Shown here: in pieces, positions 5,983 through 40,700 of the stretch
Numbering within the stretch: the first letter of the stretch is position 1
How the letters are laid out: every line of letters begins with the position of its first letter
Assembly: GCF_000172555.1 (NCBI RefSeq)
Contig: NZ_ABOX02000003.1
Coordinates: 62,001-126,000 of the forward strand
From: Pedosphaera parvula Ellin514
Lineage (GTDB): Bacteria > Verrucomicrobiota > Verrucomicrobiia > Limisphaerales > Pedosphaeraceae
Length of the DNA stretch: 64,000 nucleotides
Direction of reading: 5' to 3'
Program-made: the position numbers and the translations under genes
The notes under the pieces: model-generated
What the model was told of the DNA's origin: nothing
Database searches by the model: none
The model's input: the letters and a program-made list of their open reading frames with translations, nothing else

Positions 5983-6024
5983 ACTCAATTTACTTTTGGA
6001 CACAAAATTAGCCAACTCACCCGG

Positions 6025-6039
6025 GTTACATAATGTAAC
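6025..6039. promoter_or_regulatory. 15-bp palindrome, candidate operator
   Basis: GTTACATAATGTAAC is a perfect inverted repeat (7-bp arms around a central A). It sits about 110 bp upstream of the response regulator start at 6152, in an otherwise non-coding AT-rich stretch. Size and symmetry fit a binding site for a dimeric regulator, perhaps the adjacent NarL-type protein itself. No experimental support. Confidence 0.4.
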
Positions 6040-6151
6040 AACCAGCAATATACCCCATGAGGATTTTCCCGCCCCGTGCTTGAGGGTTCTTACCCCATAT
6101 CTGACTGCAATTCCGTGGAATACCTTCTGCTCACAACGCGACTGATTTATT

Positions 6152-6829: not shown

Positions 6830-6918
6830 CCGACTAACCTGCTTTGGGTGCACCATTGAGGTTATAATGCCCGGCGGGAACCCTTGCTTTGGAAAGTGTT
6901 CATTTAAAGGCTCTCCGA

Positions 6919-8271
6919 TTACACTCCGAACGGATATGTTTCGTCAGGGTCGTGCGGCTCCCAATGCATTGTTCTTTCCAAAGGTTCGACCGCCCGGGTC
7001 TTATCAAAGTGTATAATGAAATCAAACTGCTCTGATAGCCGGGCATGGAAATAGTGACTCATTCGTTCTGTTTCAGGTCGATAAATCACCCCAATCGCTC
7101 TTTCGAGGCGGGCTTCTTGCAGACTCTCCTTCAACTCCCGTTCCTCCTGCAACGGTAGCAGGAAATTTGATACGCCAGTTTCATGAAAAAGAGTTTCGTA
7201 ACTCCCCCGCAAAGCCGAACGCACACGTTTGAGTTGCGCCGGTTCATCCCATTCAGAAGCAGCCGTTACCGTGCCGTGATAGGTTGTAAAGCCAACCAGT
7301 ACCGCCTGGGAACCATGTCTCTCACGAACCAGTTGTCCCACATTCCACTCTCCTCGATCACCCATTTGGGTCGCACGGGCATCACCCAGATGGGAGTTAT
7401 GCGCCCAGACGACAATTTTTGGACTATGCACCTGCCTTTCGAGGTGTAACGACAGGGCCTCCAAGGTTTCAGCCATATGGCGGTCACGAAGGTTCCAGGA
7501 TTCAATATGGCCCTGGAACATCACCCGATAATATTCCTCAGCATTTTTCACCAGCCGCGCATTCTGCTCCGCGTAAAAGAATTCATCTTCTGCAAGGCGC
7601 CCATCACCTGCAAGATACGCTCCCGCGCGCCGCCGCAGTTCGACCAACTCGCTTACCGCCTCCTGTTGACACGATTCGCTCAAATCAAAGCTCGCGGCAT
7701 AACCATAAGCTTGAGGATTCTCCCCATGCTGCTCAAAACAGGAATAGCGGCCCCTCGCTCGCTTTCCAGCATCAGGATCAATCCTGTCCAAATAGTCCAA
7801 TACGGCCCTGATTGAGGCATGAAGACTGTATAAATCCATGCCGTAAAACCCCACCCTTTTCTCATTGGCATTTACCTGATCGTTATGTTCACGCAACCAC
7901 CCGACGAGGTCGAGAACATCGGCATTCCGCCACATCCATAAGGGAAAGCGCTTGAAATTTCCCAGCGCCTCGCTGGCCTCAACATCTTCACTATCACTTC
8001 GAATGTATCGGTTCACCCGATGTGCATCCGGCCAATCGGCCTCCACCGCCACGGCTGTGAACCCCTTCTCTATTATCAGTCTCTTTGTAATCTCCGCCCG
8101 GGTTCGATAGAATTCATGCGTACCATGGGTGGCTTCTCCCAAAAGTACAAACCGCGCATCTCCGATCGATTCCAATAAAAAGTCGTAGTCACAACTGGAA
8201 CCCGTCAGAGGTATGGCAACTTCACGAATTAAATCGATCAGGGAACTGGAAATGCCTAGGGCCATAACCAT
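6919..8271 (-). CDS. Erythromycin esterase family protein
   Basis: A 450-residue cytoplasmic hydrolase-like protein of the EreA/EreB superfamily. Diagnostic pieces are LLGEATHGTHEFYRTRAEITKRLI near the N terminus (conserved Glu and His residues of the active site), VEADWPDAHRVNRY, and VWAHNSHLGDAR. Most chromosomal members are not antibiotic resistance enzymes and their substrates are unknown. Its ATG at 8271 follows the stop of the phosphoribosyltransferase gene with no gap, so translation is probably coupled; a second in-frame ATG at 8265 is also possible. In other bacteria these two activities occur together or as one fused protein. Confidence 0.88.
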   Translation of the reverse strand: MVMALGISSSLIDLIREVAIPLTGSSCDYDFLLESIGDARFVLLGEATHGTHEFYRTRAEITKRLIIEKGFTAVAVEADWPDAHRVNRYIRSDSEDVEASEALGNFKRFPLWMWRNADVLDLVGWLREHNDQVNANEKRVGFYGMDLYSLHASIRAVLDYLDRIDPDAGKRARGRYSCFEQHGENPQAYGYAASFDLSESCQQEAVSELVELRRRAGAYLAGDGRLAEDEFFYAEQNARLVKNAEEYYRVMFQGHIESWNLRDRHMAETLEALSLHLERQVHSPKIVVWAHNSHLGDARATQMGDRGEWNVGQLVRERHGSQAVLVGFTTYHGTVTAASEWDEPAQLKRVRSALRGSYETLFHETGVSNFLLPLQEERELKESLQEARLERAIGVIYRPETERMSHYFHARLSEQFDFIIHFDKTRAVEPLERTMHWEPHDPDETYPFGV

Positions 8272-8964
8272 TTATATTTCGCCATTTGCTCCATGCGAGT
8301 GCGCTCCCATCGTGGCGACATCTTCGGCGCATTGATTTATCATTTCCCGCACTTCCTCGTCACTTACCTGGGGGAAATGGCGGTAATACAGCCCGACCGC
8401 ATAAAACGGTTCTGGTGTTTCAAGGCAAACGGTTTGTTCAACTTCTGTTTCAAAAGCCGCGCAGGTTTCCGGGGCCGCGACCGGCACCGCCACGATGATG
8501 CCTGCAGGTCGCTGTTGTCTTAACGCAAGCACGGCCGCACGCATGCTGGCGCCGGTGGCCAGCCCGTCATCTATTAAAATGGCAATCTTCCCTTGAATAT
8601 GTGCTGGCGGCTTGCCGTTGCGATAAAGCATTTCCCGTCTTTGCAACTCACTCCATTCCTGCTCAGCTGCCTGCATGATGAGTTGCTCCGAAATGCCGAG
8701 CATATCCACCACTTTTTCGTTCACAACCCGGATTCCACCAGACGCGATTGCTCCCATCGCCAACTCTTCGTGTCCCGGAACACCAAGCTTGCGCACAACA
8801 AAAATATCCAACGGCACATGTAATTCTTCAGCCACCTCGAAACCCACAGGCACACCGCCTCGCGGGAGGGCAAGCACCACCACATCCGGGCGATCAGCCA
8901 GATACCTCAGGCGGGTTGCAAGTATTTGACCTGCTTCGGTTCGGTCGGAAAATAAATCTGCCAT
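8272..8964 (-). CDS. Phosphoribosyltransferase family protein
   Basis: A type I phosphoribosyltransferase fold protein of 230 residues from the chosen ATG (MADLFSDR), which has AGGACA 7 bp upstream; an ORF start at 8997 would add 11 poorly conserved residues. Visible are ALPRGGVPVGFEVA, VRKLGVPGHEELAMGAIA and the PRPP-binding loop ILIDDGLATGASMRAA. Proteins of this type are often annotated as putative phosphoribosyltransferases and the nucleobase substrate is unknown. Its stop is immediately followed by the erythromycin esterase ATG, indicating a two-gene operon. Confidence 0.88.
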   Translation of the reverse strand: MADLFSDRTEAGQILATRLRYLADRPDVVVLALPRGGVPVGFEVAEELHVPLDIFVVRKLGVPGHEELAMGAIASGGIRVVNEKVVDMLGISEQLIMQAAEQEWSELQRREMLYRNGKPPAHIQGKIAILIDDGLATGASMRAAVLALRQQRPAGIIVAVPVAAPETCAAFETEVEQTVCLETPEPFYAVGLYYRHFPQVSDEEVREMINQCAEDVATMGAHSHGANGEI

Positions 8965-9239
8965 CGTATGTCCTGTCTCGTTATATCGCCAATTCATGAA
9001 ATTTTGCTCAAGTAGTTTGAAATCTTAGGCTCTCATGGTTGCCAGCATCGTGCGCCTTTGAATTTGTCTTACGATTTTGACTTAAACCCATGAGTTCTGG
9101 AGTTTTTCGAGGATTACAGTTCCGCTGCACCCGGATATCATCACCTCCATAAACTGATGGCGATGGACTCCCATCGCAAAGTAGGTAAAGACCGTAGTCC
9201 CCAATAATTTAAGTATGAACGCGAGCCAAGCAGGTCGGA

Positions 9240-12200
9240 TTAAGCAGGCAAGCGCTCCGAGGTAGCTCTTAAACAGCTGCGAAGCTCCCCGGCAAGCTGG
9301 CTCACATTTGGTTCCGTAAAGATGCTCCCATGAGAACCGGAAATGATCCTCACATCAACACCACCCAGACTAAATTCATCCCAGCCAAGCGAGCGGTCAA
9401 AGGAACAAAGTAACGGCTGCCTGCGTGTCCTAAACAAGGTTATGCGGCCAACATAAGGTTTTGTGACGTATTCCTGAAAGGCCCGAAGGTGAATCTGCCA
9501 CAGATTTAATTCGTTCTCTGGTATTTGCTCGGTATTAATGACCCCTTCCAGGTCAAAATGCGACCGTCCCATCCGCTTTGGTTTAATTAAATTTAAAATT
9601 CTTCGTCGAATAACCCTGGCCTTCCGTTCGAAGAGATTGCGGCGGATTTCGGGTTTAAGCCTGCAAAAATCTTCCAACCCATAATAAAGATTAAGCAGGA
9701 ATCCCCTGTAAAACTTTGCCCGTCTCCATGGCGCTTTGGTGTATGAAGTATTGATGGGCATACTCTCGAACAGCGCCAGGAACGCAACCTCTTCTCCCAT
9801 CCGGGATAGCTGCCGCGCCATTTCGAAGCTGACATTTCCTCCAAAACAGTAGCCGCCAAGATAATAGGGGCCTCGAGGTTGCAACGTTCGAACCTCCTCC
9901 ACGTACCGGCTGGCCATCACTTCGATACTTTCCAGCTCTGCCATTCCTCTCATACCTGGTGATTCAATCCCATAGATGGGTTGATCATCAGTAAAGCATG
10001 CTCCTAAATTGGCATAGCCCCAAAGAATGCCTCCACCTGCTCCGTGAACCAGGAACAATGGAGGCTTGGAACCACCATCCTTAATTGCCACCAGCAAGGA
10101 TCTGGAGGCGGACAATTCTTTTTCACGAATGGCATTGGCCAACTGCGCGATGGTTGGAGTTTCAAACAGTATGGTAAGCGGAAGCCTCTTTCCGAACACT
10201 TTTTCAATTCTCGCAAATAATCGGACTGCCAGCAACGAGTGGCCTCCCAATTCAAAAAATTTGTCGTGAACTCCGATGGGGCGAATACCCAGGAGCTCCT
10301 CCCAGATACCCGCCAGTTGCTCCTCTGCAGAATCCCTGGGAGCCAGATACTTATGGTCGAGCGCAGGCCTGGTGCCCTCCGGATCAGGCAGGGCCAACCG
10401 ATTTACCTTTCCGCTGGCAGTAAGTGGGAGAGTTTCCAGAAATACGTAAGCGGACGGCATCATATATTCCGGCAACTTATCTTTTAAATGCGACCGAAGC
10501 GCTTCGGAAGTCGGCTTTGATTTCCCTTTTGGCACAACGTAAGCCACCAGCTGCTTCTCCGTGGTCGAGATTTTGCGCGCCACCACCACACAATCCCTTA
10601 CGGAATCATCAGCGGCGATGGCGGCTTCAATTTCTCCCAGTTCAATGCGAAATCCGCGGATTTTGACCATGGAATCAGTCCGGCCAAGGAATTCCAGATT
10701 TCCGTCAGAAAGATATCGGACAGTATCTCCCGTATGATAAAGTTTTGATCCTGTTTGAATTTCAAATGGATTGTCGATGAATCTCTCGGCAGTTAACTCA
10801 TTTCGTTGTAGATACTCCAACGCCAGACCGTCTCCACCTGTGTAGAGCTGTCCGTATACTCCGATTGGGACCGGCCGCAAATTACAATCCAAAACATAAC
10901 AAGTGGTGTTGGAAACTGGTTTTCCAATCGGGATGGAGCGATCTGCCGGCACCCGATGTGGTATGGCATGATAGCAGGTGAACGTCGTATTTTCTGTCGG
11001 GCCATACCCATTGATCAACTGGCAGTCCTCAAGAATTTCAAGGGCCTTTTCAACATGCGGCACAGAAAGGACATCCCCACCCGCCAGCAACTGGCGGACG
11101 TTCTTTAATCTTTCAACCTGCTCCTCCACCATTTGATGAAACAATCCGGCCGTGAGCCACAAAATTGTGATCCGCTGTTTTTCGATAAAACTGCCTAGAT
11201 CAGATAACGAGGAAGGAATGGGAGGAAAAATCACCAGCCGTGCGCCATTCAACAGTGCACCCCAAATCTCGAAAGTGGAAGCATCAAAAGAAACTGGCGC
11301 CAATTGAAGGAAAACATTGTTTCCGGTCAGCGAGGCATAATTTGTCGCCTTCACCAACCGAACTACTCCACGATTGGGAACGCAAACACCTTTGGGACGT
11401 CCAGTCGATCCGGAAGTGAAGCAGACGTAGGCCACACTCTCAGGTCCACAAGAGGAAATTGGACGCTCTCCACTTTGCTCACTGACAGCTTTCCACTCCT
11501 TGTCCAAACAAATGGCTTTGAGGATATCGTGACCTGGTTCGGATTTCTTTGTTTGTCTCGGCAGGGCTTCGCGCAGTCTGGATTCGGTCAGGAGTACCCG
11601 GATCTCTGCATCCTCCATCATCAATGCCAATCTCTCCTTGGGATAAGTAGGATCCAGGGAAACATAACCGCCTCCGGCCTTCAAAATTGCCAGCAAGCCA
11701 ACAATCATTTCAAACGACCGTTCCAAACAGAGTCCAACCAACTCGCCCGACTGCACCCCCGACCTGATCAGGTAATGCGCCAATTGGTTCGATTGTCGAT
11801 TAAGCTGCCGGTATGACAGGCTTTTGCCTTCAAAGACTAATGCCACTGCATCGGGACTTGCAGAGGCTTGCTCCTCAAATAATTCTGCTATGGTTTTATT
11901 CTTTGGATAATCCGTTCGCGTCTGGTTCCATTCCACCAGCAATCGGTAGCGCTCCCCGGCCGTTAATATCGGCAAATCGGAAATGCGCTGATTAGGATTG
12001 GAAATAATGCCTTCCAGCAGAACTCGGTAATGCTCAAGCAGGCGATCAATTGTGGCATCGTCAAAAAGATCCGTTTTGTATTCCACAGCCAAAACCAACC
12101 CCTCCTCCGATTCCGTTATGGATAATGTGAGGTCGCACCTGGCCGCTCCTTCTTCAATCGGCAGGAACTTTAACTCCAGCCCTGAAAGCTTCAGTTTCTG

Positions 12201-13154
12201 CACCGGATCATTTTGAACCTGAAACATGACTTGAAACAAGGGATTATAGGTAAGACTTCGTTCCGGCTTTAGTTCCTCAACCAGTTTCTCGAAAGGAGCC
12301 TCCTTGTGAGCGAGTGCTTCAAAAAATGTTTCTCGAACTCGTGTCAGCAGTTCCCTGAAAGTCGGCGCTCCGGAAACATCGGTCCGCAGGACGAGGGTAT
12401 TTACGAACAAACCAATCAGCCCTTCGATGGCGGTCTGATCGCGATTTGCCACGGGACTTCCCACCACGATATCCTCCAACCCGGTGTACCGCTGCAGCAG
12501 AACCTTATAAGCCGTCAGCAACAGGAGAAACAAAGTTGTTTCCTCAGTTTGCGCCCGCTTGCGTATGGAATCAGAAAACTTCTCCGACCATTGGATTCTG
12601 CGAACCGCTCCAGCATGAGAAAGCATTTTTGGACGTGGACGATCTGTCGGCAGTTCGAGCATCGGCAAAGGGTTTCTCAATTTTGTCCGCCAATAAGCCA
12701 ACTCTTTTTCCAGACGTTCACCCTGCAACCGTCTTCTCTGCCAGCCCGCATAATTGCCATATTGAACTGGCAACTCAGCTAAAGGGGATTCTGCACCTTG
12801 AACCCGGCAGGAATATAATTTTCCCAGTTCAACGTAAAGCAGTTCCATTGACCAGCCATCTGAGATGATGTGGTGCATCATCAGCAGCAGCACATGATCG
12901 GAGGAACTCAAGCCTAGCAGCTTTGCTCGCAACAGCGGATCTTTGGTCAGATCGAATGGAACCTTTGTCTCGGCCCTGCACAGACGATTCAGGGTTTGTT
13001 CCTGATTCGCTGGTTCCACCTCTCCCAAGTCAATTGTTTCCAACTTTGCATAGAAAGGCGCACAGACCAAGGCCTTGGGATGACCGTCCACCGAAACGAA
13101 ATTTGTTCGCAGACTTTCATGCCGGCCCACAATTTCATTCAGACTCCACTCCAA
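9240..13154 (-). CDS. Single-module nonribosomal peptide synthetase (C-A-PCP-TE)
   Basis: A large cytosolic synthetase with one complete module. Numbering from the TTG at 13154: condensation domain about 1-400 with MMHHIISDGW (active His motif 94-100); adenylation domain about 410-900 with FTSGSTGRPKG, GYGPTE and YHTGDTVRY; carrier domain with LGGHSLLAVR (phosphopantetheine Ser973); thioesterase about 1025-1300 with GGYCFGG, so the nucleophile at 1103 is Cys rather than Ser. By alignment to GrsA the specificity residues read DAFWLGGTFK, one residue from the classical valine code. Coding similarity clearly continues upstream of 13154 (see next entry). No phosphopantetheinyl transferase, MbtH protein or second module is nearby. 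The product is unknown; an acylated or peptidyl valine is a guess. Confidence 0.93.
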   Translation of the reverse strand: MEWSLNEIVGRHESLRTNFVSVDGHPKALVCAPFYAKLETIDLGEVEPANQEQTLNRLCRAETKVPFDLTKDPLLRAKLLGLSSSDHVLLLMMHHIISDGWSMELLYVELGKLYSCRVQGAESPLAELPVQYGNYAGWQRRRLQGERLEKELAYWRTKLRNPLPMLELPTDRPRPKMLSHAGAVRRIQWSEKFSDSIRKRAQTEETTLFLLLLTAYKVLLQRYTGLEDIVVGSPVANRDQTAIEGLIGLFVNTLVLRTDVSGAPTFRELLTRVRETFFEALAHKEAPFEKLVEELKPERSLTYNPLFQVMFQVQNDPVQKLKLSGLELKFLPIEEGAARCDLTLSITESEEGLVLAVEYKTDLFDDATIDRLLEHYRVLLEGIISNPNQRISDLPILTAGERYRLLVEWNQTRTDYPKNKTIAELFEEQASASPDAVALVFEGKSLSYRQLNRQSNQLAHYLIRSGVQSGELVGLCLERSFEMIVGLLAILKAGGGYVSLDPTYPKERLALMMEDAEIRVLLTESRLREALPRQTKKSEPGHDILKAICLDKEWKAVSEQSGERPISSCGPESVAYVCFTSGSTGRPKGVCVPNRGVVRLVKATNYASLTGNNVFLQLAPVSFDASTFEIWGALLNGARLVIFPPIPSSLSDLGSFIEKQRITILWLTAGLFHQMVEEQVERLKNVRQLLAGGDVLSVPHVEKALEILEDCQLINGYGPTENTTFTCYHAIPHRVPADRSIPIGKPVSNTTCYVLDCNLRPVPIGVYGQLYTGGDGLALEYLQRNELTAERFIDNPFEIQTGSKLYHTGDTVRYLSDGNLEFLGRTDSMVKIRGFRIELGEIEAAIAADDSVRDCVVVARKISTTEKQLVAYVVPKGKSKPTSEALRSHLKDKLPEYMMPSAYVFLETLPLTASGKVNRLALPDPEGTRPALDHKYLAPRDSAEEQLAGIWEELLGIRPIGVHDKFFELGGHSLLAVRLFARIEKVFGKRLPLTILFETPTIAQLANAIREKELSASRSLLVAIKDGGSKPPLFLVHGAGGGILWGYANLGACFTDDQPIYGIESPGMRGMAELESIEVMASRYVEEVRTLQPRGPYYLGGYCFGGNVSFEMARQLSRMGEEVAFLALFESMPINTSYTKAPWRRAKFYRGFLLNLYYGLEDFCRLKPEIRRNLFERKARVIRRRILNLIKPKRMGRSHFDLEGVINTEQIPENELNLWQIHLRAFQEYVTKPYVGRITLFRTRRQPLLCSFDRSLGWDEFSLGGVDVRIISGSHGSIFTEPNVSQLAGELRSCLRATSERLPA

Positions 13155-13313
13155 AGCCTCAACGTTCAGATTCCCCGTGATTCGGATTGCAGCAGAAACG
13201 CTATAGAGCGGACTGGCTTGCGTTATCTGGTCCAGAAACCATAAGCGTTCCTGCGCATACGAAAGCAGAACCTGTGTGGTGCCACCGTTTTGTGTAATCT
13301 CATTGTAAATTGT
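13155..13313 (-). other. N-terminal coding extension of the NRPS without a standard start codon
   Basis: The NRPS frame continues upstream and encodes the first conserved condensation-domain motif (LSYAQERLWFLDQ, then SPLYSVSAAIRITGNL), so the protein must begin before 13154. The frame is open to a TGA at 13314-13316 but contains no ATG, GTG or TTG in this part. An ATG at 13315-13317, right after a run of seven G, is in another frame and reaches a stop after five codons. Either the start is unusual (for example ATT at 13308-13310) or a base is missing or added at or near the G run. Confidence 0.75.
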
Positions 13314-13423
13314 TCATCCCCCCCTTCTTGTTTAACTGGGATTGCCAGCAACTCCTCCTGATCCTAAGAGAGCTCAGATTCAGCAATTACGACCTTATTT
13401 CCCAATTTCCCATAATGGGGATG

Positions 13424-14558: not shown

Positions 14559-17060
14559 TCATTGGCTTCTCGGCCTTGGCTTCGTGCCATCGCCCCCACT
14601 CCCCTTCAGCCGGTTGTGAATTTTTTCTTCCTCTTCGCGCTCCAAGGCGGCCCGTAATACATCATCAACGTTCTCTGCCAAGGTAAACTTCAGTTTGTTC
14701 TTAACCTCTTCGGGCAAATCAAACAAATCTTTCTCGTTAAGCTTGGGAATAATTACCTCTTCGATTCCCGCGCGCAAAGCGGCCAGCGTCTTTTCCTTTA
14801 GTCCGCCAATCGGCAACACCAAACCGCGCAAGGTAACCTCACCCGTCATGGCCACTTCAGATCGTACAGGCGTATCACTAAAAAGTGATGCAATTGCCGT
14901 GAACATCGCCACGCCTGCCGACGGCCCATCCTTGGGAACCGCACCGCTGGGCACGTGCACATGAATATCCATATCCCTGAATGCATCCGCACTGATGCCG
15001 AGTTCCTTCACCCGGCTCCGCACCAGGCTTAAGGCAGCCTGCACCGATTCGCGCATGACATTTCCAATTTGCCCGGTCAAAGTAATATTACCTTTGCCAG
15101 GATACCTGGTTGCTTCAATGAACAACACCTCGCCTCCAATGGGCGTGTACGCCAATCCGGTCACGACCCCGGGCTTGCTGGTCTTCAGCCGTGTCTCGCG
15201 AATATAACGGGGTGGCCCAAGCATTTCTTGAACAATTTGTGGAGTTACTGTCATGGCTTGTATTTCACCTCGAGCCACTCTCGCTGCAATCCCACGGCAC
15301 ACGGCTCCGATTTGCCGTTCCAATTCGCGAACGCCAGCCTCCCGCGTATAATCTTCGATTACCCTGGATAGCGCACTCTTCTCCCACTGGCATTGCTCCG
15401 GCTTTAATCCGTTCTCTTCAAGTTGCCGAACCACGAGATAGTTTTTCGCAATCTCAAGTTTCTCGCGCTCGGTATAGCCTGGTAACTCAATTACTTCCAT
15501 GCGATCACGCAATGGCGCTGGCACTGCATCCATGTAATTCGCCGTCGCAATAAAAATTACCTCCGAGAGATCAAATGGCACGTCAATATACCGGTCAACA
15601 AATGCATTGTTTTGCCTCGGATCCAATACTTCGAGCAATGCACTGGCCGGATCTCCTCTAAAGTCAGCCCCTAACTTGTCAATTTCATCCAGCATGATTA
15701 CCGGATTTTTCGTCCCCACTCTTCGCATCTCCTGGATGATCCGACCCGGCATGGAACCAATGTAAGTTCGCCGATGTCCGCGTATCTCCGCTTCATCCCG
15801 AATTCCCCCCAAACTCATCCGCGCAAACTTGCGACCCAAAGCGTCTGCTATCGATTGCCCAAGGCTCGTTTTTCCCACTCCAGGGGGACCAAGGAAGCAA
15901 AGAATCGGTCCTCGTCCGCGCGGATTCAACTTACGTACGGCTAAAAACTCTATCAACCGGCGCTTAACTTTCTCCAAATCGTAATGATCCCTGTCCAAAA
16001 TTTTCTGCGCCTGATTCAGATCCAGGTTGTCCTCGCTTCGCTTGTTCCAGGGCAAATCGGCCAACGATTCCAGGTAGCCAACAATGACCGAAACCTCCGG
16101 GCTCGCCTGTGGCAACGCCCGCAAGCGTTTAAGTTCCTTCTCCGCCTGCTCCATGACCTCCGGGGGCAGCTGAGCCTCCTCAAGTTCTTTCCTTAACTCC
16201 TCGATCTGCTCATCGGCTCCTTCAGGTTCCTCACCCAATTCGCGTTGAATTGCTTTGATTTGCTCCCGCAAATAAGCCCTCCGCTGTGCATCCGTAAACT
16301 GGGACGCCACATCCTGCTGCAATTTCTGCTGCAATTGAGCAATTTCATACTGGCTCGAAACCCGCAATTGTACAGCGCGCACGCGCTTCGCCACGTCCAA
16401 CTCCTCCAATAGCTGCTGCTTGTCAGGTACCTCCATGTTCAGATTGCTCGCCAGAAAGTCCGCCATTTGTCCGGGATCCTGCATCCCTTCGATAATGGCT
16501 CTGGCCTGCTCCGGCACATCAGGCGTCACTTTGATCAGTCGCAAAGCCGTCTCCCGCAAATTGCGCACCGCTGCTTCAAATTCCTTATCCTCTTTCGGCG
16601 GCATAATCGGCCAGAGCACCTCCACCTCCGCCTTGATGAACGGATGCGTTAGGACCACCTTCCGGATCGCAAACCTCCTCATGGCCTGTACTGCAATGAC
16701 CGCCGAACCATCCGGTTGCCGGATCAGCTTCAAGACATTTGCCGCTACTCCGATTTTATAAAGATCGTCCGGCCCGGGCGATTCCTCATTGGTCTGCTGT
16801 GTGACCAGCCCGATGACCTTGCTCTGGGGCAAAGACTCCTCCAAAAGTTTCAGGGAGGTTGGCCTTCGCACTGTTAATGGCACGACCGTCCCGGGAAAAA
16901 CCACCAACCCTCGAATCGCCAGTATTGGCAAGGTTTCCGGTATGACTGGCTGATCCGGATCGTCCTCCTTGCGCGCCACTCCGATCACGTGAGGATTTTG
17001 TTGGCCTCCTTCACCATCTGCCGGAGTTGGGTCAATCATGAAATTGTCTTTGGCGGTCAT
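14559..17060 (-). CDS. lon: ATP-dependent protease Lon (endopeptidase La)
   Basis: Cytosolic AAA+ protease that degrades damaged and short-lived regulatory proteins. The 833-residue protein has an N-terminal substrate-binding domain (about 40-240), a coiled-coil linker, an AAA+ module with Walker A GPPGVGKTS and Walker B VIMLDEIDK, and a C-terminal peptidase with the Ser-Lys dyad Ser714 (DGPSAG) and Lys757 (GGLKEK). The N-terminal 30 residues form a nonconserved extension. It follows the Hsp20 gene by 42 bp on the same strand, so both are probably one stress-induced transcript. Confidence 0.97.
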   Translation of the reverse strand: MTAKDNFMIDPTPADGEGGQQNPHVIGVARKEDDPDQPVIPETLPILAIRGLVVFPGTVVPLTVRRPTSLKLLEESLPQSKVIGLVTQQTNEESPGPDDLYKIGVAANVLKLIRQPDGSAVIAVQAMRRFAIRKVVLTHPFIKAEVEVLWPIMPPKEDKEFEAAVRNLRETALRLIKVTPDVPEQARAIIEGMQDPGQMADFLASNLNMEVPDKQQLLEELDVAKRVRAVQLRVSSQYEIAQLQQKLQQDVASQFTDAQRRAYLREQIKAIQRELGEEPEGADEQIEELRKELEEAQLPPEVMEQAEKELKRLRALPQASPEVSVIVGYLESLADLPWNKRSEDNLDLNQAQKILDRDHYDLEKVKRRLIEFLAVRKLNPRGRGPILCFLGPPGVGKTSLGQSIADALGRKFARMSLGGIRDEAEIRGHRRTYIGSMPGRIIQEMRRVGTKNPVIMLDEIDKLGADFRGDPASALLEVLDPRQNNAFVDRYIDVPFDLSEVIFIATANYMDAVPAPLRDRMEVIELPGYTEREKLEIAKNYLVVRQLEENGLKPEQCQWEKSALSRVIEDYTREAGVRELERQIGAVCRGIAARVARGEIQAMTVTPQIVQEMLGPPRYIRETRLKTSKPGVVTGLAYTPIGGEVLFIEATRYPGKGNITLTGQIGNVMRESVQAALSLVRSRVKELGISADAFRDMDIHVHVPSGAVPKDGPSAGVAMFTAIASLFSDTPVRSEVAMTGEVTLRGLVLPIGGLKEKTLAALRAGIEEVIIPKLNEKDLFDLPEEVKNKLKFTLAENVDDVLRAALEREEEEKIHNRLKGSGGDGTKPRPRSQ

Positions 17061-28559: not shown

Positions 28560-28943
28560 TTATTCATGAGCTGCAAGCCATGCAACGGCTTCCTCTTCCG
28601 TCACAAAAACGTCAGTCGTAAGGCCGCGGTTGGCGCCTACGACTTCGTGGAATTGCTGGGCGTCCATACGTTCCGGTTTCGTAACCAGGGCAACGTGAAC
28701 AGCGCCCATCGCAACTGGAGCACAGCGTGTCACAGCTTCATAGCGCTCAGTAATGCTTGGAGGTGAATAACCGAAAAGCGAAGTGGTATTGAACACAAGT
28801 TTTGAAATCTTACGCTCCCGCGCATAGATAATTCCTACAATGGCCAATTCCGTAACCTTCCCTATGGTCACGTTGCCCCTTGGCCGAAAAAACACGCAGT
28901 CTCCCACAGTCTCGAACTCTTCGGCTTTGCTCGTCTCTGTCAT
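28560..28943 (-). CDS. STAS/SpoIIAA-like domain protein (hypothetical)
   Basis: A 127-residue cytoplasmic protein from MTETSKAEEF; a longer 137-residue form would start at 28973. It has a STAS/SEC14-like strand-helix pattern (CVFFRPRGNVTIGKVTELA, ISKLVFNTTSLFGYSPPSITERYEAV) and a C terminus ending in TEEEAVAWLAAHE, as in SpoIIAA-like proteins. An AAGGAGG sequence is upstream. It is the gene nearest the receiver array and lies on the same strand, so a signalling role is possible. No anti-sigma factor is nearby. Confidence 0.6.
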   Translation of the reverse strand: MTETSKAEEFETVGDCVFFRPRGNVTIGKVTELAIVGIIYARERKISKLVFNTTSLFGYSPPSITERYEAVTRCAPVAMGAVHVALVTKPERMDAQQFHEVVGANRGLTTDVFVTEEEAVAWLAAHE

Positions 28944-29054
28944 ACCACTCCACTCTTCCTCCTTCTGGTGCAAAGTGCAATGCCACTCCAGCTACATAAA
29001 CCAAGTCAGAGGAAGCGACCAGATTTCAGTTCGAACCATTTAAGCAAAGACACT

Positions 29055-29519
29055 TCAAGTTACGCAATTCTCCAAAATCTCAGGCTTTGCACAGATTCTC
29101 CAGTAATCGATGGTGAGACGCATCATTCCGGTAAATTCCTCAATCGCAGTTGGTTTGACCATGTACGCGTTCGCTCCCAACCGATAAGCCCGCTTGATGT
29201 CATCCGGTTCTGAAGAGCAAGTCATGACAATGGTGGGAATAACAGCGCAATCAGGATGCTTCTTCAACCACTCAAGCACGCCGAAGCCGTCGCGCAACGG
29301 CATTTTGAGGTCAAGAAAGATGGTGGCTGGAAAGGGGTAAGTCTTGCGATCATTGTAAGGACTATCGGCGCGCAAGTATTTAATGACCTCTTCACCATTC
29401 GGCACTATGTGAATTGGGCCTTCAATGCCATTTTTGCGTAACGCCATCTTCAGCAAAACCACTTCCTGCGGATTATCCTCCGCTATCAAAATAGGCTCAG
29501 TCTGAATTGTTCCAACCAT
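29055..29519 (-). CDS. Stand-alone response regulator receiver (array member 1)
   Basis: A single receiver domain of 154 residues without output domain, of the Rcp1/CheY-like group usually driven by phytochrome or PAS-type kinases. Intact phosphorylation site: Glu14/Asp15, Asp70 (IFLDLKMP), Thr100 (VMTCSS), Lys122 (YMVKPT). It shares with its neighbours the inserted segment before beta-3 (DSPYNDRKTYPFPA) and the C-terminal helix with DYW. Last gene of five on the same strand, though 342 bp separates it from the previous one. Confidence 0.93.
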   Translation of the reverse strand: MVGTIQTEPILIAEDNPQEVVLLKMALRKNGIEGPIHIVPNGEEVIKYLRADSPYNDRKTYPFPATIFLDLKMPLRDGFGVLEWLKKHPDCAVIPTIVMTCSSEPDDIKRAYRLGANAYMVKPTAIEEFTGMMRLTIDYWRICAKPEILENCVT

Positions 29520-29861
29520 CAGTATTATAATTCATCCATCGCACACTATACGCAATTGGCAACCATTCGGATTCATTGGACTGTTCCCGACGAAAGTGAT
29601 GCCTCGGGCCGTGAGGTATGGGTGAGACGTGGCAGGTTGCGCTCCAAACCGGGTTGGCCATGGTCAAAAGAGAGCGGTTGAACGCATGCATGGCCGGTTG
29701 GAGATGAAGCAGAAACTAATTAAGGGAGCTGATTCTGGATTGAGCTTCCCGCTCCTGTTCACACCAAACCACTGATTCTGGCTTTTCCGCACGATATGGA
29801 GAATTTCAATTGGAATCATCCCCACGTGGTCGCTGCGCTCCATCTGCATGTGCCGAAAAAG
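29520..29861. other. 342-bp gap inside the receiver array
   Basis: No gene supported. The stretch at 29690-29735 (GGTTGGAGATG … AACTAATTAAG … CTGATTCT) weakly resembles the short 3' region of the fourth receiver gene around 31262-31300. This could reflect duplication of gene-plus-flank units, but the match is too short to be sure. The promoter of receiver 1 probably lies in the part near 29520. Confidence 0.25.
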
Positions 29862-30407
29862 TTACGGCGTCGCTGGGGGCTCGAAGTCCGGCCAATCCGG
29901 CTTGATGTAAAAGAAGGATGCTCCGCGAGTATCAGCGGACGGTTTGCCAGGATTGGGTACAGAAGCTGAGAAATCAGCGATCAGGTTGTGTGCGACCCAG
30001 AAGCTGTTCATGTCGCGAAGCGTCTTGGCCATTTCCTCAACATCGCCGCTCTTGCTGATAAAGGAGTTGGCCCCCAGTCGATAGAGCTCGGCAATATCCT
30101 TGCCATCTCGCGATCCGGTCAGAACCACAATCAGCAGCTTTTTGAACTCCTTTTGCTCTCGAATCCATTTTACCAGCGCCTTGCCGGGAATGGCCGGGAG
30201 AGTAAGGTCTACAAACACGCAGCTAGGAAAAGGAAAGAGCTCGCGATCACGGTAGGGCCCGCTGCCATAAAGATAATGCAAGGCAGTAGGGAAATCGGGT
30301 GCCAAATGCAAACCGGCTTGGGGATAGACCCTGGCTATTGCCTGCTTGAAGAGCAAATAGTCTTCAGCATTGTCTTCAACGAGCAATATTGTAGGCTGCA
30401 TCTGCAT
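29862..30407 (-). CDS. Stand-alone response regulator receiver (array member 2)
   Basis: A 181-residue receiver-only protein. Active-site residues are present: Glu11/Asp12 (LLVEDNAED), Asp67 (VFVDLTLP), Thr97 (VVLTGSR) and Lys119 (FISKSGD). Compared with its neighbours it has a longer C-terminal tail of about 40 residues after the receiver (SVPNPGKPSADTRG … DWPDFEPP), probably flexible. Same family-specific insertion (GPYRDRELFPFPS). No kinase, HPt or output partner lies in the window next to it. Confidence 0.92.
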   Translation of the reverse strand: MQMQPTILLVEDNAEDYLLFKQAIARVYPQAGLHLAPDFPTALHYLYGSGPYRDRELFPFPSCVFVDLTLPAIPGKALVKWIREQKEFKKLLIVVLTGSRDGKDIAELYRLGANSFISKSGDVEEMAKTLRDMNSFWVAHNLIADFSASVPNPGKPSADTRGASFFYIKPDWPDFEPPATP

Positions 30408-30579
30408 CGAATCAGGAACTGCCTTTCTGTAATGTGTTCGTTGGGTTCAGCAACAACATCAGGAAAACTACGTCCGCTTAATGCTTAATAGCAAGGTTAA
30501 CTTACTCAGGCTTGGCACGGTCGTTTTGAGATTCATGGGTGCACTACTGTCCTTGGAATAAAAACATCCCTCCGAAAGG

Positions 30580-31152
30580 TCATATGCCGGAAGGTTGGAA
30601 ACCAGTGACCTCTAAGGACTTCTGCGCCAGGACCAAAAGGCTCTTCGCCAGCGGAATAACTTGCCGACGAGAAGGCTCATCATGGTTTGAACCTCCCCGC
30701 TCATCGCTTTGCGGCGCCTGAAGCTGTTGATTCAAGCTCAACCAGTATTTAGCGGTTGTCCCAAGAACATTATCCAGATCCTCACCGTTTGAGGGTTTGA
30801 TCAGGTACGCATTCGCACCGAGTTTGTAGGCGTGGTTCAGATCGAATTCCATGCGCGAGCCACTTAGGATCACGACTGGCAATGCCAACATTGAATGTTG
30901 CTTTCGGATCCATTGCAGCACACCAAAGCCGGTAACGACCGGAAGGGTCAGATCTAAAAAGATAAGCGAAGGAAAGGGATACTTGCGCCGATCGGCATAC
31001 TTGCCCTTGCCGTCGAGATAGGCAATTGCCTCGTCACCATCGGAAACAACCTGGAGTGCTTTCGAAAGGCCGATTTTCTTCATCGCCTGATGCATGAAGA
31101 GCACGTCCGACTCATTGTCTTCTACATAAAGAATGATTTGAGATAATTGCAT
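30580..31152 (-). CDS. Stand-alone response regulator receiver (array member 3)
   Basis: A 190-residue receiver-only protein with Glu11/Asp12 (LYVEDNESD), Asp67 (IFLDLTLP), Ser97 in the Thr/Ser switch position and Lys119 (LIKPSNG). The conserved insertion KGKYADRRKYPFPS is nearly identical to that of member 4, which suggests these two arose by recent duplication. The 60-residue C-terminal tail (PQSDERGGSN … SLLVLAQKSLEVTGFQPS) is not similar to those of the neighbours. Separated from member 2 by 172 bp. Confidence 0.92.
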   Translation of the reverse strand: MQLSQIILYVEDNESDVLFMHQAMKKIGLSKALQVVSDGDEAIAYLDGKGKYADRRKYPFPSLIFLDLTLPVVTGFGVLQWIRKQHSMLALPVVILSGSRMEFDLNHAYKLGANAYLIKPSNGEDLDNVLGTTAKYWLSLNQQLQAPQSDERGGSNHDEPSRRQVIPLAKSLLVLAQKSLEVTGFQPSGI

Positions 31153-31281
31153 ATCGAAGTATTAAACAGAACCAGCTAATCGCTAAGTGTCAAGTCCAGA
31201 TGCTGCTCTTTGAGTTGGTTTTAAGGAAAAGTTTGTGGATTTTTCCGCACTTGGGGAATATGCAAGGCGGCTGGAGATGGA

Positions 31282-31794
31282 TTAGTTTCTCTGATTCTTT
31301 TCAAGCCCGGGCGGAGGAACTTCGAGGCCGGCCGGGATCTTTCCCTCAGTGACATTAAACCTCAACCAGAAGTCAATCACGCGGCGAACTTGGGACTCGA
31401 AGGCTTTCGGGTCGCTGGCTTTCACAATGTAGGAGTTTACTCCAATGTTATAAGCCTCCTGAATGTCCGACGACATTTCCCAACTGGAAAAGATAACGAT
31501 GGGTATCTTGCGTAAATTTTTTTGAAAACGAATCCACTGCACCAGGTCGCGCGCAACGCGTCCTCCCAGCCTGGTTTCCAGCACAATAAGTGCTGGCAAA
31601 GGAAACAGGTCCCGGTCGGCGTATTTGCCTCTGCCTGACAGATAAGCAATAACCGCATCGCCATCACCAACCGTTATCAGGTTTTGGGTGAAGCCGTAGC
31701 GCTCGAAAGCACGACGAACGAGAACTTGATCCGATTCTTTTGAATCAGCGTATAATACTAAACGCATAACCCTCAGTCTGTGTGTGGCTTCCAT
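31282..31794 (-). CDS. Degenerate receiver protein with Glu at the phospho-acceptor site (array member 4)
   Basis: A 170-residue receiver-like protein. At the phospho-acceptor position the neighbours have LDLTLP or LDVKLP, but this protein has VLETRLGG, so Asp is replaced by Glu73. The acidic pair is reduced to Asp17-Ser18 (LYADSKESD against LYVEDNESD in member 3), and the switch position is Ser103/104. Lys125 is kept (YIVKASD). Such proteins cannot be phosphorylated normally; Glu often mimics the phosphorylated state. The fold otherwise looks intact and the reading frame is undamaged, so it is probably functional. A start at 31767 would shorten it by 9 residues. Confidence 0.88.
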   Translation of the reverse strand: MEATHRLRVMRLVLYADSKESDQVLVRRAFERYGFTQNLITVGDGDAVIAYLSGRGKYADRDLFPLPALIVLETRLGGRVARDLVQWIRFQKNLRKIPIVIFSSWEMSSDIQEAYNIGVNSYIVKASDPKAFESQVRRVIDFWLRFNVTEGKIPAGLEVPPPGLEKNQRN

Positions 31795-31891
31795 TTATTC
31801 ACTCAAAAATCAAACAATGTCAAGCTCGCAACCAAACCGCATGTCTCGACACATATAATGCCTGCTGAACACATTATCTTCACTTGTCCGC

Positions 31892-32326
31892 CTATCTTTC
31901 AGGAAGTTTTTGGTTCACGTCGAACCAGTATTTTAACAGGAGTTGCAGCGATTCCCGGAATTTCCCCATGTCGCCCGTTTTCACCAGATACGAGTTAGCC
32001 CCCAAACTTAGGGCTCTCAAAATATCATCCCGTCGGTCTGAGGATGTAAGCATGATAACAGGCATGGCGGTAAACTGCATTTGCTGCCGTATCCATTTGA
32101 CGACCTCATGGCCATCCACTCTCGGCAACTTAACATCAAGCAAAACGAGGTCGGGGACCTGGGAATCCTTGGTATTAGCCGTGGGCAGAACTTTCGTAAG
32201 GTGGTGAAGGGCTTGTTCACCATCCGACACTATCTCCATCGCAACTGGTTGAGGTGTGTCTTTGATTGCCATCTGCAGCAACAGCACATCATCTTCCCTA
32301 TCCTCAACCAACAAAATTCTTTTCAT
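31892..32326 (-). CDS. Stand-alone response regulator receiver (array member 5)
   Basis: A 144-residue receiver-only protein and the first gene of the array in transcription order. Active site is complete: Glu8/Asp9 (LLVEDREDD), Asp64 (VLLDVKLP), Thr94 (IMLTSSD) and Lys116 (YLVKTGD). It is the shortest member, lacks a C-terminal tail, and its pre-beta-3 insertion (TANTKDSQVPD) differs from the aromatic-rich one of members 1-4. It ends 97 bp before member 4. The divergent ankyrin gene begins 213 bp away. Confidence 0.93.
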   Translation of the reverse strand: MKRILLVEDREDDVLLLQMAIKDTPQPVAMEIVSDGEQALHHLTKVLPTANTKDSQVPDLVLLDVKLPRVDGHEVVKWIRQQMQFTAMPVIMLTSSDRRDDILRALSLGANSYLVKTGDMGKFRESLQLLLKYWFDVNQKLPER

Positions 32327-32539
32327 TGAATTTTATAAAATAGATATCCGCCACAGGTCTTCAATCGGGCAGATACAGAATTAATATAACCTGCAGTTTC
32401 AACCCATGGCCAGTCAATAGCGCTGTGATGTAATAGGTTGTACGCATATTTACTTTTTGCAACGCATCGCATTACCATTGCAACCAGTGCGCGAGGAAAT
32501 TAAACTCCTGTCAGATCACCTGTGACACCTGAGCATCGC

Positions 32540-33700
32540 ATGAAAGAATTTACGAAATTCCTCACGACGACGGTTTGTTCATCATTGATTGCCCTCTCAT
32601 TCTTCGGCTGCAGCAAGCCGGTTCAGCCGAACCAATCAATCTTCGAGGCAGCCAGGAGTGGTAACGCGGAAGAAATTAAACTGAACATCAGCGCGGGAGT
32701 GAATCCCAACCAACCCGACGATAAAGGCGAAACCCCGCTGGTCATCGCCGCCGAAAACGATAAAAAGGACGCCGTGGCCAAGCTTCTGGATAAGGGCGCT
32801 ACGATCGATCTGGGAGACAGCGTGGGCAACACGCCCCTGCATCACGCAATTGGCAACAATCATCCGGAAGTCGCCAGATACCTGATCAGCCGGGGGGCCA
32901 ATGTGAACACTGGCAATAAAGGCAAAATCACCCCCTTTCATATGGCGGTGGCCTTTGGTGTCAGGGATCTCGTGAACTTCATGTTGGAAAAAGGTGCGGA
33001 CGTAAACGCGAAGGATGAGGCCAATGAGACTCCTCTTTCACTTGCACTGGGCGACGAAGGCCATAAGGAGCTGGCTGAGACCCTCATCGCCAAGGGGGCG
33101 GACACAAATGCCAAAGGCAATCACGGTCAGACTCTTCTTAACACCACGATGCTTCAAGGGCTGACGAATCTCAGTCTCCTCTTAATCTCGAAAGGGGCGG
33201 ACATAAATGCCAAAGGCTCCTCAGCCGATCCCCCCATCCTCATGGCCACTAAGCGCGGGTACACGGATATTGTAAAAGCTCTGCTCGATAAGAATGTCGA
33301 TCTGAAAGCCAAAGACAGCGCAGGAGACACTTCACTGCACGTTGCCGTTAAAACCGGATCGTTGCCAATCGTCGAACTTCTCATCAGCAAAGGCTCAGAC
33401 ATAAATGCCAAAGGTTTCTTTTCGTTTACTCCTCTGCATACAGCGGCTCTCAACAATAGAAGAGAAATTGCCGAACTTATTATTTCCAAAGGGGCGGATC
33501 TTAATGCCAGGGATGATTGGAATCAGACGCCGTTGCACCGGGCCGTGGAGAAGAATCACAAAAGCGTGGTGGAACTACTCATTTCCAAAGGGGCGGATAT
33601 CAATGCCAGGGAAAGAATGGGTAAAACCCCTTTGCAATTGGCTCTCGCATCCAGCAACTCCGATTCGGCTGATCTTCTAAAAAAGGCTGGAGCTAACTAG
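32540..33700 (+). CDS. Ankyrin-repeat lipoprotein
   Basis: A 386-residue protein with an N-terminal lipoprotein signal (MKEFTKFLTTTVC … ALSFFGC, Cys about 24) and roughly ten ankyrin repeats over residues 35-386. Each repeat has the TPLH-AA … VVELLISKGADINA pattern. Several units (ELLISKGADINA) are almost identical at residue level, pointing to internal duplication. A protein-binding role in the periplasm or at the outer membrane is likely, with unknown partner. The ATG at 32540 was preferred over a GTG at 32522 because the signal starts there. Confidence 0.87.
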   Translation: MKEFTKFLTTTVCSSLIALSFFGCSKPVQPNQSIFEAARSGNAEEIKLNISAGVNPNQPDDKGETPLVIAAENDKKDAVAKLLDKGATIDLGDSVGNTPLHHAIGNNHPEVARYLISRGANVNTGNKGKITPFHMAVAFGVRDLVNFMLEKGADVNAKDEANETPLSLALGDEGHKELAETLIAKGADTNAKGNHGQTLLNTTMLQGLTNLSLLLISKGADINAKGSSADPPILMATKRGYTDIVKALLDKNVDLKAKDSAGDTSLHVAVKTGSLPIVELLISKGSDINAKGFFSFTPLHTAALNNRREIAELIISKGADLNARDDWNQTPLHRAVEKNHKSVVELLISKGADINARERMGKTPLQLALASSNSDSADLLKKAGAN

Positions 33701-38407: not shown

Positions 38408-39943
38408 TCAGGCTGCTTTTAACCGGACGAGCACTTCAAAACCAGAGGGTTTCCGGTTACGACAACTTACCTGCCCGCCACAGGATTCAACACAGGTTTT
38501 CACGATCGCGAGCCCCAGGCCAACGCCCCCGGTTTCACGCGCCCGGGAAACATCGATCCTGTAAAATGGATCAAATAACTGGGCTATTGCAGCCTCAGGA
38601 ACGCCGCTTCCACTATCGGCGATTGAAATCAAAACTTCATTCGCACCTTCCTTACTTGCTGAGATTACAATTGGCCCGGCCTCACTGGCATATCTGACTG
38701 CGTTCCTCAGCACGTTCGCCAATGCGCGATGCAATAAATCGGGTTCAGCCATTATCTGAAGGTGTTCAGCTATTTCTGTTTGGATATTTACTTCAGTGTT
38801 TCCTTCACGATGAATGACTTGATCGATTATTGGTTTCAGATCAACTGCTTTAAGCTTGATCCTGGCTGGCTCCAATGAGGCTTTCGAGAAGGAGAGCAGT
38901 TCGTTCACCAAACTGGACATATGCTGCACTTCTTCGCGAACATCTTCCACATAGCTGGATTGTTCTGAATTGGCGCGTTGCTCCAGAACTCCCAGCGCCA
39001 TTTGCACGCGCGCGATCGGAGTACAAAGCTCGTGGGCGATGTCCCCCAGAAACCGCTTTTGTCCAGAAACGAACCCGGCCAGCCGTTCGGTCATCCGATT
39101 GATCGACCCGCCAAGCCTTCCAAGTTCATCATTGCGTCCATCCTTCACTCTTACCTCAAAATTACCAGCCGCTACCTCTTCGCTGGCTCGGGTAATCTCC
39201 CTAATGGATCTCGTTATGCCACGGACGAGAGGAAACCACAGCAGCGCGGAAACGACAAGCACCCCCAGCCCAACCCCAATCCATGGCACAAAATCAAAAA
39301 ACAGACCACCACCCTGAAGCGACCTCGACATGATCAGGAGTGTCATCGGCGGCGATGGTCCGGGCCTGCCTGGGACATCGACTTTCATCCTCACACCCAC
39401 CCAGTACTGGCTGGGATCAGAGGTATGCACAATAAAACGTGAATGGGGGCCAGTCAGGAGCGGATCAGGCACGACAGGGCGCCTCAACGGGCCTTGAGGC
39501 CCTGCTTCTGGAGGACCAAAATCATCCTCCGGACGTGGAGGCCGACCTGGTTCGCCAACACCGACCTGTTCCGGAGGTTGGGGCAACCGGCGATTCTCCA
39601 TGACATTGTTTAGAACTGCCTTTGGAACGCTGGTACTTTCATCCCCCGCCAGTTGTTCCCCATCATTTCTGTAGAGGAGGAACTGCACGTGATAAGAGCT
39701 GCCCAACCTCTGCAAAATTTCATTCCATCTGGTTCGGGGAGCTTCGCTCAGGGAGGAGCTGACGACCTCCGACACAGATTGTATCCGCTCGCCCGCTTTA
39801 CCAGCGATCAGGAAATCCAATCCCAAGTGTAACTGGCCGCTTACAAACACGAAAAAGATCAGGGCAAGGATAACGAAATTCAGGACCAGCCAGAGCAGTA
39901 TCTTCGAGTAAAGTGGAAATCTGACCTTCATTCGATCAATCAT
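38408..39943 (-). CDS. Sensor histidine kinase (CpxA/OmpB-type)
   Basis: A 511-residue membrane kinase. Segments: TM1 about 12-35; periplasmic domain about 36-220 with a very proline-rich loop (GEPGRPPRPEDDFGPPEAGP); TM2 about 225-245; HAMP; HisKA with H-box DIAHELCTP (His about 304); HATPase_c with N box (ALANVLRNAVRY), DSGSGVP and GVGLGLAIV. The H box has Cys at the common Arg position. The gene overlaps the response regulator by 8 bp, so translation is coupled; a second ATG at 39931 is possible. The periplasmic proline-rich segment is striking because the divergent gene product is also proline-rich. Confidence 0.92.
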   Translation of the reverse strand: MIDRMKVRFPLYSKILLWLVLNFVILALIFFVFVSGQLHLGLDFLIAGKAGERIQSVSEVVSSSLSEAPRTRWNEILQRLGSSYHVQFLLYRNDGEQLAGDESTSVPKAVLNNVMENRRLPQPPEQVGVGEPGRPPRPEDDFGPPEAGPQGPLRRPVVPDPLLTGPHSRFIVHTSDPSQYWVGVRMKVDVPGRPGPSPPMTLLIMSRSLQGGGLFFDFVPWIGVGLGVLVVSALLWFPLVRGITRSIREITRASEEVAAGNFEVRVKDGRNDELGRLGGSINRMTERLAGFVSGQKRFLGDIAHELCTPIARVQMALGVLEQRANSEQSSYVEDVREEVQHMSSLVNELLSFSKASLEPARIKLKAVDLKPIIDQVIHREGNTEVNIQTEIAEHLQIMAEPDLLHRALANVLRNAVRYASEAGPIVISASKEGANEVLISIADSGSGVPEAAIAQLFDPFYRIDVSRARETGGVGLGLAIVKTCVESCGGQVSCRNRKPSGFEVLVRLKAA

Positions 39944-40700
39944 ATCTCTCTGCTGGATTCATCAGCATATAACCCGCCGTGCGGACGGTTCTGATGAACC
40001 GCGGGCTTTTAGGGTCGTCTCCCAGCTTTTTGCGCAAGGCTGAGATATGCACGTCGATTGACCGGTCAAAGACGTCGTAATTTCTTTCCGCAATTTCATC
40101 CAGTAATTGCTCACGACTTTTTATCCTTCCCTTGGCACGCGCAAGTGAAGCCAGCAAATCGTATTCAACCGGGGTGAGATCCAGCGGCTTATCTCCCAGA
40201 ACAGCAGTCCTCGAGCCTTCATTGACCCTTAGATCCTGGATAACAATTTCTTGAGCGTCCGGCGTTTCAGTCGCTTTCGTTGTCTGATTACTCCTGCGGG
40301 TAACGGCTCGCAACCTTGCCAACAATTCACGAGTGGAAAAGGTTTTTGGCAGATAATCGTCAGCGCCAATCTCCAGTCCAACAATCCGATCCGATTCGTC
40401 ACCACGCGCCGTCAGCATCAGCACCGGAACATTCGACGCGCGACGTATCTGCTTCAACACTTCAAACCCATCCATGCCTGGCAGCATGACGTCGAGAATC
40501 ACGGCAGCAAAAGTTTCGCTCACCGCCTTCTCTGCCCCCTCAGGTCCGGTATGGGCAAGGGCGATCTCATAACCCATCGGTTCCAGGTAATCCTTGATCA
40601 ACCGACAGAGCTTCCTGTCGTCATCGATGACCAACAAACGCGTTTTGATAAAACCTTGTTTGTCTGAACTCTTGCCTTGGTTCGATTCGATGTGTGCCAT
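39936..40700 (-). CDS. OmpR/CpxR-type response regulator
   Basis: A 254-residue DNA-binding regulator paired with the overlapping kinase gene. A receiver (about 20-140) with acidic pair IDDDRK, phospho-acceptor in VILDVMLPG and Lys in DDYLPKTFS; a winged-helix trans_reg_C domain (about 155-250) with LTPVEYDLLASLARAKG, SIDVHISALRKKLG and RTVRTAGYML. The first 20 residues are a polar extension. Transcription starts opposite the EF-hand gene across a shared upstream region (40701-40885). Confidence 0.93.
   Translation of the reverse strand: MAHIESNQGKSSDKQGFIKTRLLVIDDDRKLCRLIKDYLEPMGYEIALAHTGPEGAEKAVSETFAAVILDVMLPGMDGFEVLKQIRRASNVPVLMLTARGDESDRIVGLEIGADDYLPKTFSTRELLARLRAVTRRSNQTTKATETPDAQEIVIQDLRVNEGSRTAVLGDKPLDLTPVEYDLLASLARAKGRIKSREQLLDEIAERNYDVFDRSIDVHISALRKKLGDDPKSPRFIRTVRTAGYMLMNPAERYD

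Follow-up and report, generated by a model that had tools for sequence, protein, structure and literature searches.

Five clustered Rcp1-type receiver genes of Pedosphaera parvula: a kinase-free gathering with a conserved three-gene core and a predicted pseudo-receiver

A 64,000-nt stretch of the Pedosphaera parvula Ellin514 genome (the window; the genome, G000, comprises 7.41 Mb in 102 contigs) carries five consecutive minus-strand genes, R1 to R5, each encoding a small receiver protein. We favor, with a probability of about 0.6, a reading in which these are orphan Rcp1-type regulators without output domains, drawn from several lineages, phosphorylated in trans and acting by contact, with R2, R3 and R4 forming a core in which R4 is locked. 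The cluster is real but is a gathering of distantly related family members rather than the product of fresh duplication. In the favored reading R2-R3-R4 is an old functional unit; the block is kept together in two Pedosphaera species while the flanks differ. In both species R4 is predicted to be a pseudo-receiver, that is, an aspartate-less receiver, that has kept its fold.

Family membership and kinase context

PF00072 is the sole domain found in each of R1-R5, with no output domain; R4 falls 0.2 bits short of the curated cut-off (30.0 against 30.2 bits). The five receiver-only minus-strand open reading frames (ORFs) of the original prediction, made from the DNA alone, are borne out at the coordinates given there. 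In a PDB sequence search run with R3 and R4, the nearest solved structures were of Rcp1 type, namely RphyB (4zyl), Rcp1 (1i3c), RcpA (1k68) and RcpB (1k66), and R1, R2 and R5 match the same family profile. The Rcp1-like insertion before beta3, reported earlier for members 1 to 4, is present between alpha2 and beta3 as YxxRxxxPxP; it is clear in R1-R4 and altered in R5. Pairwise identity among the five is about 25-40%. The phosphoacceptor Asp and the acidic pocket are present in R1, R2, R3 and R5 and missing in R4. Judged by sequence, R1-R5 are single-domain Rcp1-type response regulators.

As had been noted, no histidine kinase lies within the array. The closest HATPase domain lies 6,088 bp away from R5; it is part of a HAMP-HisKA-HATPase protein (38408-39943) whose frame overlaps the one for its own OmpR-type regulator (39936-40700). 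Across G000, a profile built from R1-R5 gave 53 matches, 51 of which were used (the two weakest, including one that lies within a frame of 1,116 aa, were omitted). The genome also has 123 matches to HATPase_c and no fewer than 150 receiver domains. Of the 51 Rcp1-like receivers, only 10 are kinase-adjacent (same strand, within 300 bp of a HATPase domain), as are 8 of 69 (within 400 bp) in the genome of a sister Pedosphaera species, G001. One-to-one pairing with a kinase, taken as usual for this type in the original prediction, is not the norm here. The stand-alone Rcp1-type family is greatly expanded in Pedosphaera, with 51-69 members per genome, most of them kinase-less.

The array is the only G000 cluster of three or more Rcp1-like receivers. 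Placing 53 genes at random on 7.41 Mb, 20,000 times over, never produced five in a row, and the cluster therefore exceeds what chance placement would give. G001 holds clusters of 10, 5, 4, 3 and 3 members. The G001 contigs that carry the R2-R4 block and the clusters of 10, 5 and 4 members gave no HATPase match, two of these contigs being so short (7.8 and 8.7 kb) that a kinase could sit just outside. With kinase-free clusters of 10, 5, 4 and 3 in G001, the array is not one of a kind, nor is its size unusual. Four genomes from outside the genus, three belonging to the same family and the fourth to a different family of the order, yielded 14-39 receivers each in the same search; read by eye, these lists contained no cluster larger than three except one in genome G005, which is interleaved with kinases.

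Two of these loci merit description. The ten-member cluster (L072, G001 contig C184, about 6017-13388) has Rcp1-type receivers on both strands and an eleventh 2 kb on, at 15237-15824; the 55-kb contig carries no kinase domain, and this kinase-free cluster is larger than R1-R5. The G005 locus (L073, contig C177, 3080-16039) is a kinase-linked counterpart of the array, its Rcp1-type receiver genes being interspersed with those of a KaiC-like ATPase, of a PAS kinase that shares 4 bp with the receiver gene following it, and of a 1,508-aa CheB/CheR-PAS-kinase (domain names assigned by eye).

Several lineages and a conserved core

In an IQ-TREE tree of 81 receivers from the two Pedosphaera genomes, the array members have separate relatives. 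R1 groups with cluster members from G001 contigs C184 and C265 and a gene on G000 contig C26 (a four-row set, support 99/94), and R2 groups with members from G001 contig C40 (100/84). The nearest relative of R5 is a lone gene on G000 contig C8, and a C40 member joins them (100/99). Placing R1-R5 and three orthologues in one clade was rejected by the approximately unbiased (AU) test (p-AU 2.6e-5), as was a single clade of R2-R4 (p 0.0025). The five thus belong largely to different deep clades, and tandem duplication of all five, considered as their origin, is rejected, since the members do not form one clade among their paralogues. Of the duplication and specialization proposed originally, specialized tails stand, the R2 tail being identical between the species, and duplication within the array does not.

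Other comparisons describe the same gathering. Domain identity within R1-R5 (0.308) equals that of random quintets of Rcp1-like receivers from the genome (0.308 ± 0.034). On the tree, kinase adjacency requires 5 changes against a shuffled mean of 15.5 and minimum of 11, which places it in few lineages, whereas the members of clusters show only mild grouping (16 changes; shuffled mean 22.1, minimum 16). Clusters have therefore been assembled from several, mostly kinase-less lineages.

On G001 contig C121, orthologues of R2, R3 and R4 (80%, 76% and 57% identity) preserve the arrangement of the array, order and strand alike, and are separated by 124 and 91 bp. This 14-kb locus lacks R1 and R5, and its other ORFs have no match in the window save for one 27% partial match. 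The conservation across relatives raised by the original prediction thus extends, in the sister genome, to the core and not to R1 and R5. Nonsynonymous divergence (dN) from the G001 orthologues is 0.14, 0.16 and 0.37 for R2, R3 and R4, with synonymous divergence (dS) saturated. Because divergence is greatest at third codon positions in each of these genes, R2, R3 and also R4 are under purifying selection. No orthologue was found outside the genus for R2 in 196 genomes of the order, for R3 in 30 relatives or for R4 in 58 relatives, and a scan of genome contigs for R4 was also empty.

Neutral accumulation, in which orphan receiver copies pile up by chance and rearrangement with no joint function, would fit the several mixed-lineage clusters of G001, the lack of R1 and R5 at its R2-R4 locus and the finding that array members are as diverse as random sets. 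It would not predict a run of five from random placement, nor an R2-R3-R4 order kept though both flanks have changed, nor the strong conservation of R2 and R3 and the invariance of the R2 tail. We consider it unlikely.

The R4 phosphate site and the R2 tail

Glu takes the phosphoacceptor position in just two of 161 aligned Rcp1-like receivers, R4 and its orthologue. The second acidic-pocket residue has also been lost from both proteins, and both retain the Ser/Thr and Lys of the active site, lack Pro at D+4 and have Trp at T+2. Between the two proteins the active-site loops have diverged (beta3-alpha3 42% and beta4-alpha4 50% identity), while strands beta1, beta3, beta4 and beta5 (75-80%) and helix alpha5 (61%) have changed less. 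An AlphaFold model of R4 from a five-sequence alignment (mean pLDDT 79) has a receiver fold, with 1i3c and 4zyl as best matches. This loss of the phosphate site went unremarked in the original prediction. Because the phosphoacceptor Asp has become Glu and the second metal-binding acid is gone, R4 is predicted to be incapable of phosphorylation in the usual way, and hence could not be an ordinary phosphate sink.

A survey of aspartate-less receivers found Glu to be the commonest replacement (26%), the second acid usually to be lost and Verrucomicrobia to be among the groups rich in such proteins (PMC4395418); Glu is likewise reported as the commonest replacement in pseudo-receivers by PMC12632262. 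Other candidates occur in the two Pedosphaera genomes. A minus-strand ORF of G001 contig C265 that starts at 6673 (L085) appears to be a pseudo-receiver within a receiver cluster: Lys stands in place of the phosphoacceptor Asp, and Asn in place of the conserved Lys. Two lone Rcp1-like receivers, L124 (G000 contig C12) and L116 (G001 contig C216), both have Asn in place of the phosphoacceptor Asp, and the pair is likely a second conserved pseudo-receiver.

The function originally suggested for the array was that of a tandem-duplicated set that takes phosphate from one kinase or a few and shares it out to several outputs, or drains it as a phosphate sink. Four of the five receivers have complete active sites, none has an output domain and no kinase lies beside them; single-domain receivers are known elsewhere as hubs or sinks, MrrA (PMC5964349) being one instance. 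Three expectations of this model nevertheless fail. Common origin is rejected by the AU test, R4 cannot accept phosphate normally, so that not all members are phosphate-competent, and kinase-contact residues are not shared: at putative contact columns, picked from general knowledge in alpha1 and the beta5-alpha5 loop, identity within R1-R5 is no higher than random (0.209 against 0.187 ± 0.054 for random quintets). One shared kinase, sought as a candidate through the same residues, gave no signal. The distributor or sink model has no positive support here and is improbable.

The C-terminal tail of R2 (residues 152-178) is identical at 27 of 27 positions in the two Pedosphaera species, against 80% for the whole protein. 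The motif was absent from every other receiver collected, no match at a meaningful E-value was found in the two Pedosphaera genomes beyond R2 and its orthologue, and when about 85,000 genomes were scanned for the pattern, the sole hit was the metagenome-assembled genome (MAG) of the sister Pedosphaera. The tail most likely serves as a motif that binds one particular target. A structure prediction of R2 made without an alignment (pLDDT 44) was unusable. Cle proteins of Caulobacter illustrate that a C-terminal peptide, rather than phosphate, controls some receivers (PMC5677366); with one Arg in 27 residues, the R2 tail lacks the Arg-richness of such cyclic di-GMP (c-di-GMP) receivers.

Locus layout, mode of action and known systems

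The features of the array are listed in Table 1. Spacers from R1-R2 to R4-R5 measure 342, 172, 129 and 97 bp, in agreement with the range of 97-342 bp given originally. A foreign origin of the array was considered and rejected, the G+C of the R1-R5 genes (0.48-0.53) resembling that of the window (0.52). A mobile element or repeat in the 342-bp spacer was likewise rejected, as this spacer is single copy in the genome. No Rfam RNA element matched between 24000 and 38000.

Table 1. Coordinates of the receiver genes and selected sites within the window
Feature	Position	Strand	Description
R1	29055..29519	-	154 aa, receiver-only; active site complete; outside conserved core
R2	29862..30407	-	181 aa, receiver-only; active site complete; orthologue on G001 contig C121, 80% identity
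R2 C-terminal tail	29874..29954	-	residues 152-178, NPGKPSADTRGASFFYIKPDWPDFEPP
R3	30580..31152	-	190 aa, receiver-only; active site complete; C121 orthologue 76%; possible sister of R4
R4	31282..31794	-	170 aa, predicted pseudo-receiver; C121 orthologue 57%, same phosphate-site loss
R4 codon 73	31576..31578	-	GAA, Glu at the phosphoacceptor Asp position; orthologue also Glu
R4 codon 18	31741..31743	-	Ser18 at the second acidic-pocket position; Gln in orthologue
R5	31892..32326	-	144 aa, receiver-only; active site complete; insertion before beta3 altered; outside conserved core

Downstream of R1, 81 bp away on the same strand, lies an ORF (28560-28973, minus strand) that weakly resembles SpoIIAA (E 0.011). 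It has four other homologues in the genome, of which the nearest to any Rcp1-like receiver is about 5 kb off; since these homologues do not adjoin such receivers, an output pair of R1 and this ORF was rejected. Divergent from R5 is a 392-aa ankyrin-repeat protein (32522-33700, plus strand) with an N-terminus that looks lipoprotein-like by eye. Farther away, a single-module nonribosomal peptide synthetase (9240-13154, minus strand; condensation, AMP-binding, PP-binding and thioesterase domains) has near it an erythromycin-esterase family protein (6919-8271) and a LuxR-type response regulator (6152-6829).

In the mechanism that we favor, R1, R2, R3 and R5, which keep all catalytic residues, would most likely be phosphorylated in trans by kinases encoded elsewhere, each with partners of its own. 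Output would pass through protein-protein contact by way of the receiver face and the differing tails, the invariant tail of R2 providing the contact to its target. R4 most likely acts as a binding partner or competitor, for example of R3, that is constitutively active or blind to phosphate, because it is not normally phosphorylatable and carries Glu in the Asp site. R1 and R5, lacking at the sister species' R2-R4 locus, would be additions. Several points weigh against this account. Phosphorylation in trans and partner binding are inferred; the conservation comes from two genomes within a single genus, and one of these is a fragmented MAG; promoters and terminators were no more frequent in a scan than in shuffled sequence, and co-expression is hypothetical; and R3 and R4, which stand side by side on the tree and may be sisters, have weak support as such (80/61).

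A more specific form of the same explanation is a three-part switch, in which Glu-locked R4 partners or competes with R3, R2 or both, or inhibits their kinase, so that output is set by the balance of receiver complexes. The block's persistence in two species despite changed flanks, the possible sisterhood of R3 and R4, the retention of R4 strands and alpha5 while its active-site loops diverge, and the precedent of Osp, a receiver-like inhibitor of CckA (PMC9430884), are all consistent with it. Its interactions are putative, however, the R3-R4 relation is weakly supported, and the faster evolution of R4 would also be expected of a relaxed protein. This form remains tentative. A broader proposal, that kinase-free clusters are modular hubs combining mixed-lineage phosphorylatable receivers with a locked pseudo-receiver, with output by receiver-receiver heterodimerization rather than DNA binding, is speculative and rather improbable. 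In that proposal R2-R3-R4 would be the conserved example and the ten-gene G001 cluster the extreme one.

Each protein belongs to a known family, either Rcp1-type regulators or aspartate-less receivers. In the open-licence literature we found no arrays of receiver-only genes and no description of kinase-free clusters of 3-10 mixed-lineage Rcp1-type receivers with a pseudo-receiver in a conserved core. Single-domain regulators are common, and how their kinases and targets are found is poorly known; the switching of bacterial pseudo-receivers has been termed a mystery in a 2025 review (PMC12632262). The occurrence together, in two species, of a pseudo-receiver, its possible phosphorylatable sister and a receiver with an invariant tail makes the role of the Glu site and partner binding testable on small proteins. 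The 51-69 stand-alone receivers per genome also form a natural set for the study of pathway insulation.

Comparison with characterized systems places the array among known folds and possible modes of action. Rcp1, RcpA, RcpB and bacteriophytochrome regulators (1i3c, 1k68, 1k66, 4zyl, 5ic5, 6xvu) are likewise receiver-only with an insertion before beta3, and such structures are both the best sequence matches of R3 and R4 and the best fold matches of the R4 model. They have been studied as partners of a phytochrome kinase, whereas the array has no adjacent kinase, brings five genes together and includes R4 with its phosphate site lost. The Cle proteins are also a family of receiver-only proteins in one genome and offer a precedent for control by the tail; their peptide is Arg-rich and binds c-di-GMP, in contrast to the R2 tail, and the R2 active site is intact. 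With the aspartate-less receivers surveyed (PMC4395418, PMC12632262), R4 shares the Glu site, the lost second acid and the kept Lys, but differs from them in being a stand-alone Rcp1-type protein kept beside two phosphorylatable receivers. Osp of Rhodobacter sphaeroides, also receiver-like and without an output domain, acts by binding another signaling protein and may serve as a model for R4; Osp is alphaproteobacterial, and the likeness drawn here is one of mode of action.

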